From: Candidatus Omnitrophota bacterium | GTDB lineage: Bacteria > Omnitrophota > Gorgyraeia > JABMRN01 > RBG-13-46-9 | Direction of reading: 5' to 3' | DNA: 40,806 nt | NCBI GenBank assembly: GCA_016782425.1 | Contig: JADHYN010000002.1 | Span: forward strand, 1-40,806 | Part shown: positions 7,925-31,133 of the stretch, piece after piece | Numbering within the stretch: position 1 is the stretch's first letter | How the letters are laid out: every line of letters starts with the position of its first letter | The notes under the pieces: model-generated | Told to the model about the DNA's origin: nothing | The model's database searches: none | Seen by the model: the letters and a program-made list of their open reading frames with translations, nothing else | Position numbers and translations under genes: made by a program

Positions 7925-10900
7925 TTATGTTTTAAACCGTATGCTGTCGTTTCCGCACAGGTTCTCGATTTCTTCGAATAAGACCTCATCGAGTTTTACA
8001 GCGTAATTCTTGCCCGCCGATATACTGACCTTTCTGCCCGTGGGCTGTTGGAAATTCAAAAGAACCGGAATCTTTCCGCGATGCCGGGTGAGTATGTCCT
8101 TTAGGGTATCAAGCACGGGTTTCTCAAGTCCTGGGGTTGAGAGGTCTATTAATATTGCTTTAGTGAATTTTGATTTTACCTCTTCCAAAGGAATAATCTC
8201 GTCCGCAAGAAGCTTCGGTTCTTCATCCCTCAGGCTTAATTTGCCGGTTATGAATACCATGGAATCAACCCTCACAAGATTTGAGAATTTCTGGAAGGTC
8301 CTTGGAAAGACCAAGGTCTCCACAGTACCTGTTAAATCTTCCAGGTTCACTATGGCCATTTTCTCTTGTGTTCTTCGGGTCGTCGTAATCTTTGCCTTGC
8401 TTATTATCCCGCCCAAACGCATTTCCTCACCGTCTCTTAGAGTGCTAAGGTTTGCGATGGAAGAAGAGGAATAGTTGTTTAACAATTTTTCAAAACGAGC
8501 CAAGGGGTGCTTCGTAATATAGAAACCGAGCATTTCCTTCTCATAAGAAAGAAGCTGGCTCTCCGTCCATTCGGGAATATCGGGAATTTCATGAAAAGTT
8601 TTCTGGAAGCTTTCCTGCATGTCAAAGGTATCGAAGAAAGAATATTGGCCGTTTAGTTTATCCTTCTGGACCCCGCCGGCGATCTCGAGGGCCTTGTCCA
8701 ATATTGCCAGCTGCTGCGAGCGGTGCAGTTTGAGTGAATCAAAAGCGCCGCATTTGATAAGGCTTTCTACGACTCTTCTGTTGACAAGACGCGAATCCAC
8801 CCTTTGTGTAAAATCATAGATGGATTTAAACTTGCCGAATTTAGTTCTTGAAGTAATAATCGAATCTATGGCGCTTTGACCAATGTTTTTTACGGCTGCC
8901 AGGCCAAAACGTATTCCTTCTTCAACAACAGTAAAATTGGCAAAGCTTTCGTCTACGTCCGGAGGCAGAACCTTTATGCCCATCCTTATGGCTTCGTTTA
9001 TATACAAAGCAACTTTATCCGTGTTGTCGCGTTCACTTGTAAGCAGCGCCGTCATGAACTCGACCGGGAAATTCGCCTTGAGGTAGGCGGTTCTATAGCT
9101 TATCATGGCGTAAGCCGTGCTGTGAGATTTATTGAATCCGTAACCCGCGAAGTACTCTATTTGATTGAATATCTTATTCGCTGTATCTTTGTCGATGCCT
9201 TTTTTTAAGGCGCCATTTACAAAATTGTGCCTGGCTTCGGCCATGATCTCGGGCGTTTTCTTGCTGATTGCGCGCCTTAACGTATCCGCTTCGGCCAGGC
9301 TGAATCCTGCCAGGTCCGAAGCGATTTTCATGACCTGCTCCTGATATACTATAATACCGTGTGTCTCCTTAAGTATGGGTTCCAGTAACGGATGGTCGTA
9401 TCTTATATCTATTCTTTTATGCTTTCTTCCGATAAAGTCATCAAGCATCCCGCTTCCTATCGGGCCGGGCCGGAAGAGCGCCAGAAGTGCTATTGCTTCT
9501 TCGAATCTTTCCGGTTTAAGCTTTTTTAAGAGGTCGCGCATGCCCGAACTTTCTAACTGAAATATGCCTATGGATTCGGCTTTGGTTAAAAGCTCGAATG
9601 TCTTTTTATCATCGAGATTTATCTTTTCGATGTCAATGTCGATGTCTCTTGTTCTTTTCACTATTTTTACCGTCTCGTTTATGACGGTTAATGTTTTAAG
9701 CCCCAGAAAATCCATTTTCAGGAGCCCTATTTTTTCCAGAGACGTCATTGGAAAGCCGGTCGTAATCTGGCCGTCGTTGGTTTTGAAAAGCGGCACGTAA
9801 TTTGTCAGATCCTCCTGGCTTATAACTACTCCTGCGGCGTGCGTGGAGGCGTGGCGCGTTAACCTTTCGAGTTTCATCGATATATCGATGAGCTTGGTAA
9901 TACTGGGGTTACTTTTATATAAATTTTCAAGTTCTGGTTCTACCTTTAAGGCGTGTTCCAGGGTTATGTTCAGTTCGTTGGGTATGAGTTTGGCGATCTT
10001 ATCGGCTTCGGCATACGGCATGCCCATGACTCTGGCAACGTCACGCACAACGCCCTTGGCCATCATTGTTCCGAAAGTAATGATTTGTGCGACGTTGCTT
10101 TTGGAATATTTGTTTATGACGTAATCGATGACTTCGTTTCTGCGTTCGTAGCAGAAGTCAATGTCGATATCGGGCATGCTGATTCTTTCCGGATTTAAAA
10201 ACCTCTCAAAGATCAGCCCGTAGCGTAGCGGATCTACGTCCGTAATGCCGAGCGAGTAACTGACAACGCTTCCCGCAGCCGAACCCCTTCCTGGGCCGAC
10301 GGGTATGTTTCTACCTTTAGCGAAATTCACAAAATCCCACGCTATGAGAAAGTAACTTGTATAACCGCTGTTCTTTATAATCTGCAATTCGTGCCCTACC
10401 CTGTCTTCGACCACTTTATCGATTTTCTCGTATTTATTTTTTAGTCCTTCGTAAACTAACTTTTCCAGATATTTCTCGCGCGTTATGCCTTCGGGCGGGT
10501 TGTATTGCGGGAGGTGAATCTTACTGAAATCAAGTTCTACGTTACACTTCTCGGCTATTTCCATTGTGTTGCTTATTGCGGATGGTGCTATATCGCGGAA
10601 TGCCTTCTTCATGGTTTCGGGCGGTTTGAAATAAAACTCGTCTGTCTGCATTCTCATACGGCTTGGATCATCTAGGGTTGTTTGTGTTTGAATAGAGAGA
10701 AGTGCTTCGTGGGCTCTTGCATCATCCTTGTAAATATAGTGCACGTCGTTTGTTGCAACCAGCGGAATGTCGAGGTCTTTTGAGATTTTTATAATCGCCT
10801 TGTTTACTTTTGCCTGATCATCTATCCCGTTGTCCTGAAGTTCCAGATAGAAATTTTCTTTGCCAAAAATATGTCGATACTGATCGGCTGTTTTTCTGGC

Positions 10901-28407: not shown

Positions 28408-29619
28408 CTATTCTGTTCCCTGTATTAGATTTTTCATTAGAAGATGGCCTTCTCCCAAAACAAGCGTGCTCGATTTTGCCGCCTGTTCCGTAAAGACGCA
28501 TGCGGTGTCAACCTCGACACCAACTCCCGCAATTACAAAAGGTATCGGATCAGTCGTATGCGTCCTCAAGGCTATCGGCGTTGCGTGGTCCGGCAGAACC
28601 ATTATCCTGAAATCCTTTCTATCCTTAAATTCTTCCCAAATGGTTCCTACAACGAACTTATCGAAATTTTCGATAGCGGTTATTTTTGCTCTTATATCGC
28701 CGTTATGACCTGCTTCATCGGCGGCTTCCACATGTACGAATACAAAGTCACCCTTCTCCAAGGATTTAACCGCATATTCTCCCTTGCCTTTAAAATTCGT
28801 ATCATAATAACCGGTGGCGCCCGGTACTTCTATAACATCCAGTCCTACGATTTTACCGATACCCTTAATCAAATCAACGGCTGAAATTATAGATCCTGTT
28901 ACGCCGTAAAGCTCCTTGAATAAAGGCATATCAGGCATTATACCTTGTCCCCACAACCATATTGAATTAGCGGGATTTTCGCCAAGATCGATTCTTACCT
29001 TATTAATATTGTGTCCGGCAAGAATCTCTTTTGATTTATTCATAAGATCTATTAAAATATCTTTACCTTCACCCTGCGGCAAATTCTTGGATATGCCTTT
29101 TCCTATAATGTCGTGCGGAGGCATGCACTTCAATTTGGAAATTTTGATAGCCTCTTCGCGCGAGGCTGTCTCAAGAACCATGAGGTGCCTGTAGCTCATG
29201 CCCGGATAGAATTTTATCTTATTGGTGCCGAGTTTTTTGTTTATTTCTTCAATGATAATTTTTGCTTCCTTCGTGGTTATGTGGCCTGCTGAGTAATCTA
29301 CCATCTTGCCTCCCGTCTGGGTCACCACATTGCATCTGAAAGCAACGTCTTTCTCGCTCAAACTTACCCCAATATTCACCGCTTCTAACGGGCCTCTGCC
29401 CGAGTAATATTTCTTGGGGTCATATCCAAGTATCGAAAGATTGGCTACATCACTTGCAGGCGTCATGCCTTTTGGTATGGTTGTGGCAATGCCGAGTCTT
29501 CCCTTTTTTACGATTTCGTCCATGTATTTTCTATCGGCAACTTCTAGAGTGGTGCGGCCGTTCAATTCGTCAAGCGGCCTCCCGCTCATCCCATCCCCAA
29601 CCAAAACTATGTATTTCAT
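28408..29619 (-). CDS. 2,3-bisphosphoglycerate-independent phosphoglycerate mutase, archaeal (ApgM) type; possible homoserine-kinase-like enzyme
   Basis: MKYIVLVGDGMSGRPLDELNGRTTLEVADRKYMD; start reset to 29619, with GGAGG upstream, rather than 29685. Confidence 0.88.
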   Translation of the reverse strand: MKYIVLVGDGMSGRPLDELNGRTTLEVADRKYMDEIVKKGRLGIATTIPKGMTPASDVANLSILGYDPKKYYSGRGPLEAVNIGVSLSEKDVAFRCNVVTQTGGKMVDYSAGHITTKEAKIIIEEINKKLGTNKIKFYPGMSYRHLMVLETASREEAIKISKLKCMPPHDIIGKGISKNLPQGEGKDILIDLMNKSKEILAGHNINKVRIDLGENPANSIWLWGQGIMPDMPLFKELYGVTGSIISAVDLIKGIGKIVGLDVIEVPGATGYYDTNFKGKGEYAVKSLEKGDFVFVHVEAADEAGHNGDIRAKITAIENFDKFVVGTIWEEFKDRKDFRIMVLPDHATPIALRTHTTDPIPFVIAGVGVEVDTACVFTEQAAKSSTLVLGEGHLLMKNLIQGTE

Positions 29620-29660: not shown

Positions 29661-29890
29661 TCGGGGCGCGCGGATTCTCCCGCAAAGAGAATATTCAAAG
29701 AAGAATCTTTGCGGCATCCCGTAGAATTTCTCCTGGAGAATCTTCATACGGGAGAACCGCGGACCTCTTGCCCCGTTCCAAATCGTCCTAAGAAAGTTTT
29801 AAATAGAACTTTTGTTTTCAGCAGCTGAAAATTTTTGATATAAATTAAAATTTTTTGTGGGCGATTTGGAACGGGGCTTGCACCCCAAGC
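29661..29890 (-). pseudogene. Truncated tRNA-Pro copy (3' half) interrupted by two palindromic insertions
   Basis: 29661-29677 (15/17), 29754-29770 (17/17) and 29881-29890 (10/10) match tRNA-Pro segments 29924-29940, 29941-29957 and 29958-29967 in order. Confidence 0.85.
29771..29876. mobile_element. MITE-like element, 106 bp, inside the tRNA-Pro remnant
   Basis: Perfect 15-bp TIRs ccccgttccaaatcg (29771-29785)/cgatttggaacgggg (29862-29876); flanked by cttg at 29767-29770 and 29877-29880. Confidence 0.85.
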
Positions 29891-29920
29891 CATTCCTGCA
29901 AAAATTCTTTGACGTAAATA

Positions 29921-29998
29921 TGGTCGGGATGCGCGGATTCGAACCGCGGACCTCTTGCACCCCAAGCAAGCGCGCTTACCAAACTGCGCTACATCCCG
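29921..29998 (-). tRNA. tRNA-Pro(GGG), CCA encoded
   Basis: CGGGATG TA GCGC...; anticodon loop TTGGGGT; T arm CGCGGTTCGAATCCGCG; acceptor CATCCCG A CCA. Confidence 0.96.
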
Positions 29999-30083: not shown

Positions 30084-31133
30084 TCAAAAACCTATCTCTT
30101 TTACAATACCGTCCAGTTTCGCCGGAAGAACTTTGGGTTTCTCGATACTGGCTATGGCTCTCTCCGGATCCTTCAGTCCGTGTCCGGTCAAAACGCAAAC
30201 TATCTTAAGTTCCTCGCCTTTAAAGTAGTCTTGTTTTGCTTTCTTTAATACCCCGGCTACGCTCGCCGCTGAAGCAGGCTCTACGAATATGCCTTCTTTT
30301 GAAGCCAGCAGTTTATAGGCGTTTAAAATCTCCTCATCCGTAACCGCTTCGATTAATCCGCCTGATTCGTCTCTGGCAGCCTTGGCTTTTTCCCAGCTTG
30401 CAGGATTTCCTATTTTGATAGCGGTTGCAATGGTCTTCGGATTCTTTACCACATGCCCCTTGACTATCGGCGAGGCGCCTTCGGCCTGAAATCCGATCAT
30501 CCTGGGAAGACTATTTATCCTGCCTTTTTCTTTATACTCTTTATAGCCCTTCCAGTAAGCGGTAATATTACCGGCGTTTCCTACGGGAATCGCGTGGTAA
30601 TCCGGGGCTTCCGTCAGGACATCACAAATCTCAAATGCACCTGTTTTCTGGCCTTCAATCCTATTCGGATTTAATGAATTAACCAGCGTGATTGGGTACT
30701 TTTCGGTAATCTCTATTACCAATTTTAAACAGTCGTCAAAATTTCCCTTTACGGCGATCACCTGAGCGCCGTGGATAAGCGCCTGCGCAAGCTTTCCCAG
30801 TGCTATCGAGCCCTCCGGTATTAAGACAATGCACTTTATTTTAGCGCAGGCCGCATACGCTGCGGCTGAAGCCGAAGTGTTTCCGGTAGAAGCGCACATT
30901 ACAGCTTCTTGACCCTCTTCGATGGCCTTCGAAACAGCCATGGTCATGCCTCTATCCTTGAAAGAGCCTGTCGGATTGAGTCCTTCGCATTTGAAATAGA
31001 CTTCCACATTCTTGCCGGCTAAACTTCCAATATACCTTGACTTGATAAGAGGGGTATTCCCCTCTTTCAAAGAGATTATAGGGGTTTTATCCGTTACCGG
31101 CAAAAATTCTTTATATCGTCTTATTACACCCAT
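30084..31133 (-). CDS. thrC: Threonine synthase
   Basis: 349 aa; [38 protein letters not shown]. Confidence 0.96.

Follow-up and report, generated by a model that had tools for sequence, protein, structure and literature searches.

Next to an intact tRNA-Pro(GGG) gene of a Candidatus Omnitrophota bacterium lies the 3′ part of another such gene, broken into three pieces by two palindromes. Which of the two copies is the original, and what could have produced this arrangement? We analyzed a 40,806-nt stretch of DNA containing the locus (the window; contig C35 of genome G000). Eight genomes of one family (G000–G007) were compared, together with loci (designated by L numbers) fetched from the compared Omnitrophota genomes. 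Those compared genomes whose titles were seen are MAGs, and G007 is a single contig. Since this single-contig genome has copies of the 76-bp palindrome described below (E2) and, at locus L006, a remnant of tRNA-Arg split by a palindrome and adjacent to the intact gene, assembly error is no general explanation of such structures.

Gene order around the tRNA is conserved in the family. Its downstream neighbor is an apgM-type phosphoglycerate mutase gene (28408..29619, minus strand), whose protein product has 71–80% identity in seven relatives; the nearest named hits to this protein are from Omnitrophota MAGs. A tRNA-Pro(GGG) gene was found upstream of apgM in six of the seven; in the remaining one, G002, the locus is at a contig end. 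The upstream neighbor (30084..31133, minus strand) is a putative threonine synthase gene, thrC, assigned on the basis of its translation and the conserved gene order. In G001, G003, G004, G005, G006 and G007, thrC and apgM enclose a single intact tRNA-Pro(GGG) gene.

In the window, the intact tRNA-Pro(GGG) gene occupies positions 29921..29998 (minus strand); it was identified by ARAGORN and by Rfam (RF00005, 67.6 bits) and has the acceptor stem CGGGATG/CATCCCG and an encoded CCA. A spacer of 30 bp (29891..29920, minus strand), with no tRNA similarity, extends from it to the remnant; the old tRNA lacks its 5′ half here. The remnant, at 29661-29890, was described in the initial annotation as three tRNA-Pro(GGG) pieces arranged in order and matching the intact tRNA at 42 of 44 positions, with palindromic insertions of 76 and 106 bp, a CTTG duplication and no D arm or 5′ acceptor side. 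All of this was reproduced, the pieces to the base. Listed in the direction of the tRNA (minus strand), piece 1 comprises the anticodon loop and 3′ anticodon stem (GCTTGGGGTGCAAG, 29877..29890, including one copy of the CAAG duplication). Piece 2 contains the variable loop and 5′ T-arm (AGGTCCGCGGTTC, 29754..29766). Piece 3 contains the 3′ T-arm and 3′ acceptor strand (GAATCCGCGCGCCCCGA, 29661..29677) and is followed by the ancestral 3′ flank.

The direct-repeat families shared by remnant and intact tRNA (21, 18 and 14 nt long, with 95, 89 and 100% identity) put the similarity well beyond chance. It might have been confined to positions common to all tRNAs; it is instead specific to tRNA-Pro(GGG), as it includes the anticodon loop TTGGGGT and extends to a complete match with the orthologs of five relatives. 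The remnant was called as a tRNA by neither ARAGORN nor Rfam.

With the inserts excised, the joined 44-nt remnant is identical (44/44) to the tRNA-Pro(GGG) of G001, G004, G005, G006 and G007, compared with 42/44 for both the intact copy of the window and the tRNA of G003. The flank downstream of the remnant (TGATGATTTGG) has its counterpart downstream of the tRNA in relatives (TACTGATTTGG). The intact tRNA of the window has its closest family member in the more distant G003 (95%; locus L030). Among the family members read, only these two have the acceptor stem CGGGATG/CATCCCG; the others have CGGGGCG/CGCCCCG. Because the remnant carries both the ancestral acceptor sequence and the ancestral 3′ flank, it represents the remains of the resident tRNA-Pro(GGG) gene. 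The intact neighbor is the second copy, either a newcomer or a duplicate; two of its acceptor pairs differ from those of the remnant, so it was not simply copied from it. Thus, the earlier picture of a decayed tRNA-Pro colonized by small palindromic mobile elements stands, while the notion of a truncated copy of the intact gene is contradicted by the 44/44 match to relatives.

The two inserts are unrelated and differ in their ends: the 106-bp insert is flanked by the 4-bp sequence CAAG, whereas the 76-bp insert is located at TTC^GAA without a duplication. The 106-bp palindrome, E1 (29771..29876, no strand assigned), has the terminal inverted repeat CCCCGTTCCAAATCG and a copy of CAAG on either side, seen as CTTG on the plus strand at 29767-29770 and 29877-29880. 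Its terminal inverted repeats have 33-nt arms with 85% complementarity, the outer 15 bp being perfect. Relatives of E1 were found in G001 on contigs C16 (86% identity, duplication CGAG) and C31 (duplication CAAG), and a shorter form in G010, where one short E1-like palindrome is located ∼50 bp from a tRNA-Val gene. Judged by its ends and target duplications, E1 appears to be a small transposon. It resembles MITEs in its size of 106 bp, the perfect 15-bp terminal repeats and the 4-bp duplication at three sites; it differs from them in being single copy in G000 and in having no autonomous partner found. The E1 end motif was present in 6 of 384 genomes, where the loci read contained short palindromes or single ends, and no long autonomous element with E1 ends was detected among the 384 genomes. 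Weak Rfam matches of E1 to microRNAs were dismissed as reflecting the long hairpin only. In G058, two tRNA-Ala genes (L057 and L059) have E1-like 49-bp palindromes directly at their 5′ ends, with the first tRNA bases, GGGGC, repeated on the far side of the palindrome.

The 76-bp insert, E2 (TCCCG..CGGGATGCCG..CGGGA, 29678..29753, no strand assigned), is located in the T loop. The bases TTC and GAA on its two sides were assigned to the target rather than to the element, given the empty site. E2 consists of two hairpins with the common consensus TCCCG..CGGGATCCCG..CGGGA, and model R1 matched the window copy twice, on opposite strands (60.8 and 27.7 bits). An E2 covariance model was built from 11 copies; matches, often in opposite-strand pairs, were observed in 43 of 197 Omnitrophota genomes of the class. 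G000 has about four E2 copies. A weak match in the window at 9417-9453 (16.3 bits, E 0.009) could be a further hairpin copy or chance.

Paired short imperfect palindromes in inverted orientation, dispersed in genomes without target duplication, are also characteristic of REPIN/REP-RAYT systems, and genes of Y1 (HUH) transposases exist in seven of the eight family genomes. Unlike REPINs, E2 has a low copy number and is placed in tRNA loops far above expectation; moreover, two family genomes have Y1 genes yet no E2, and no E2 was found within reach of 10 Y1_Tnp loci or of the two in G000. The double-hairpin elements of fungal and yeast mitochondrial DNA are reported to be likewise small and mobile with two adjacent hairpins; E2 differs from them in sequence, in its bacterial host and in its association with tRNA loops. 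Searches of viral contigs for E2 or the 5′ part of the intact tRNA-Pro gave no match, nor did a search of plasmids for the window locus.

To characterize E2 placement, we took 102 further copies from the best-scoring matches, irrespective of tRNAs and excluding the window copy. Many are outside tRNAs, but 15 of the 102 are situated in tRNA-derived sequence, nearly all in the D, anticodon or T loop (binomial P = 4e-8, with the tRNA share of intergenic sequence assumed by us to be 2.5%). These 15 cases come from nine genomes (G005, G038, G040, G043, G060, G078, G120, G144 and G192) and affect tRNAs for Leu, Gly, Pro, Ser, Thr, Arg, Glu and Ala; 13 of them have an intact gene for this kind of tRNA no more than 300 bp away. 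A general tendency of E2 to insert at the tip of any palindrome was rejected: flank complementarity for the 102 copies was 3.77 pairs in 12, vs 3.63 ± 0.14 in permuted data. The only target preferences left after this comparison are YTN^NAR and tRNA loops.

Fourteen E2/tRNA cases, including the window, could be mapped against the intact neighbor. The E2 junction is in the T loop in six, in the anticodon loop in five, in the D loop in two and at the foot of the D stem in one; the motifs are TTC^RAA (T loop), TTC^CAA or TTTG^CAA (anticodon loop) and GTTG^AAAG (D loop). All 14 have the same polarity: the tRNA half facing the outer flank is retained, while the one facing the intact copy has been cut away, so that a remnant upstream of the intact tRNA keeps the 5′ part (9 of 14) and a remnant downstream keeps the 3′ part (5 of 14). 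The inner-side piece usually measures 5–15 nt (it is longer in the window and in L152) and in many cases stops close to the foot of the arm that is interrupted. Outer pieces are in some cases identical to the neighbor (65/65 nt in L205, 38/38 in L169 and 22/22 in L107); a missing half next to such a piece was therefore not lost by slow decay. Inspection by eye of L205, L159 and L107 did not reveal a spacer that is a tandem copy of the upstream flank.

The layout, i.e. an outer tRNA half, a hairpin in its loop, a break usually a few nucleotides inward, a spacer and an intact tRNA, was found at genes of tRNAs for Gly, Glu, Ser, Arg, Ala, Leu, Thr, Asn and Pro, and it recurs across about 14 families of one Omnitrophota class.

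E2 is not the only palindrome found in such positions. A third palindrome family (CCTGCCTGCC..GGCAGGCAGG) splits 5′ tRNA remnants in the D loop at L006, L224 and L264 (sites TTGGTA^GAG and TGGATA^GAG), upstream of intact tRNA-Arg or tRNA-Asn, in three different families. Double hairpins TCCGCC..GGCGGA are present in D loops of tRNA-Gly-like remnants at L111 and L193; E2 is in the anticodon loop there.

In several cases, the spacer encodes a protein. At L169, E2 and the intact tRNA-Glu are 256 bp apart, and this interval codes for a GIY-YIG domain (PF01541, Pfam E 6.9e-13); the ORF starts ∼14 nt past E2 and reads into the tRNA. At L258, L259, L264, L276, L224 and L255 the order is 5′ tRNA remnant, GIY-YIG ORF, intact tRNA; the remnant is palindrome-split in five of the six, and in L255 a short palindrome follows it. 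Hairpin-bearing 3′ remnants are also present on the opposite side in L276 and L169; in L258 that side contains a bare 3′ fragment and another GIY-YIG ORF. In G002 (L143), a GIY-YIG ORF is flanked by two direct copies of a unit formed by a tRNA 5′ fragment and E2, and another tRNA start lies downstream. Most of these ORFs display the usual GIY-YIG motifs when aligned. The frame at L169, L258, L276 and L264 runs stop-free into the intact tRNA, which provides the stop codon.

Proximity to tRNAs is a frequent property of these genes: 28 of 74 small GIY-YIG ORFs (39 genomes) have a tRNA within 450 bp. By locus, a tRNA is present at 27 of 70 GIY-YIG loci vs 0 of 10 Y1-transposase loci and 0 of 20 UvrC loci, the latter control being strict on one side only as the UvrC gene fills much of its region. 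In G005, the locus orthologous to that of the window has a GIY-YIG ORF after the thrC stop codon, with palindromes between this ORF and tRNA-Pro; in G000 itself, contig C30 carries a GIY-YIG gene close to tRNA-Glu. The majority of remnants carrying E2 have no adjoining GIY-YIG gene. The nearest solved structures to the L169 ORF product are single-domain GIY-YIG proteins of the UPF0213 type (PDB 1zg2 and 1ywl, E 1.5e-8 and 1.3e-5), free-standing bacterial proteins deposited as hypothetical; a link to tRNA invasion is new here.

A precedent comes from phage. SegB belongs to the GIY-YIG enzymes; it is implicated in the cleavage of tRNA-bearing sequences, and it duplicates segments of tRNAs (PMC13096335). 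The genes of SegB-type homing endonucleases of T-even phages are likewise small, free-standing and statistically enriched beside tRNAs of many isotypes, and the tRNA segments duplicate by recombination near the tRNA 5′ end and the segB 3′ end (PMC13096335). In contrast, the Omnitrophota ORFs are chromosomal and single-domain (∼80–110 aa) with a putative tRNA-cutting function, the displaced tRNA halves bear double-hairpin inserts in their loops and the window locus has no nuclease gene.

For the window itself we infer, with a probability slightly better than even (about 0.55), a derivative of a tRNA-invading element that displaced part of its target, left an intact tRNA and is devoid of a GIY-YIG gene. 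In such a mechanism, the endonuclease would cut the tRNA gene in or near a loop, and repair would insert element DNA and duplicate part of the tRNA around it; one full tRNA would remain, with the old half pushed outward. The hairpin elements might either take part in this process or settle in the displaced half once it is no longer needed. The window shows a partial tRNA copy beside an intact one with the outer part kept, as well as a hairpin in the remnant loop (E2 at TTC^GAA). No GIY-YIG gene was found at the locus or elsewhere on contig C35, and the nuclease could have acted in trans or its gene could have been lost later.

tRNA genes are essential. To our knowledge, invasion of bacterial tRNA genes has mostly been described for integrases, which target the 3′ end, and for self-splicing introns. 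The recurrent layout points to an undescribed way for mobile DNA to invade these genes: in ∼14 families, tRNA loops have been hit repeatedly, with an intact copy nearly always at hand and a homing-type nuclease gene sometimes in between. A more speculative proposal, to which we give rather low credence, is an Omnitrophota selfish element whose GIY-YIG nuclease cleaves a tRNA gene within or close to its loops, which supplies or regenerates an intact copy and whose hairpins disable the displaced original. This would be a natural cleave-and-rescue system, with the window as its nuclease-less remnant. If confirmed, invasion of this kind would give mobile DNA a new route for living in essential genes, explain the presence of many of the small GIY-YIG genes in these genomes and provide a testable bacterial counterpart of phage SegB. 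We found no literature that joins GIY-YIG, tRNA genes and candidate phyla; Omnitrophota and GIY-YIG are joined in the literature.

The main rival is plain duplication, which we consider a serious though less favored possibility. Here, tRNA-Pro(GGG) would have been duplicated in tandem, two palindromes (MITE- and REPIN-like) would have inserted independently into the redundant copy and its 5′ half would have been deleted afterwards. Both inserts do belong to mobile-element families, and the difference between intact copy and remnant at two acceptor pairs fits as well. If insertion into a single-copy tRNA is lethal, insertions would be seen only in duplicated tRNAs, and selection alone would yield the association with an intact copy. 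Locus L152, where a tRNA-Thr that is interrupted but nearly full length adjoins an intact one, is explained equally well. What duplication followed by random decay does not explain is the uniform polarity (14 of 14), which extends to remnants identical to the intact copy (L205, L107 and L169), or the GIY-YIG genes in the spacer of several cases. Of the 21 tRNAs at tRNA-Pro loci of the eight family genomes, taken as a control, only that of the window had a partial copy within 450 bp.

Much less probable is the att-like scar put forward in the initial annotation, in which an element integrated at the 3′ end of tRNA-Pro was lost and the partial duplication it left was later hit by palindromes. 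The remnant is indeed a 3′ part of the tRNA located downstream of the intact copy, and att-like duplications of the tRNA 3′ end (19–21 nt, from the T loop) do occur at L112, L161, L207, L277 and L278. The window locus, however, has no integrase, integrated element or cargo, and only 30 bp lie between the copies. The duplicated stretch, which begins within the anticodon loop, is interrupted at two loops, and the ancestral sequence is in the remnant, not in the intact copy. Elsewhere, upstream 5′ remnants are as common as downstream 3′ ones, and integration at the 3′ end does not produce them.

It is highly improbable that the remnant is a functional non-coding RNA, or a split or intron-containing tRNA whose hairpins are removed after transcription: the predicted fold is strong (z −4.55) and the inserts are at loops, including the anticodon loop, the usual position of tRNA introns in archaea, but the mobile palindromes themselves explain the fold, the 5′ half and D arm are missing, neither program calls a tRNA there and the relatives have a single uninterrupted tRNA instead of the same interrupted structure with compensatory changes.

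Duplicates of the tRNA 3′ end form a distinct group of loci. An exact 19–21-nt duplicate, from the T loop to CCA, is present ∼100–300 bp further on at L161:422-660, L207:441-680, L112, L122 (second tRNA), L277 and L278. At L161, L207, L112 and L122, the stretch between the tRNA and the duplicate is a common element, TTCGAAG.GA.CGAGCGCCGA ... GAGGAAAAG ..., inside which E2 or a similar double hairpin is at times nested.
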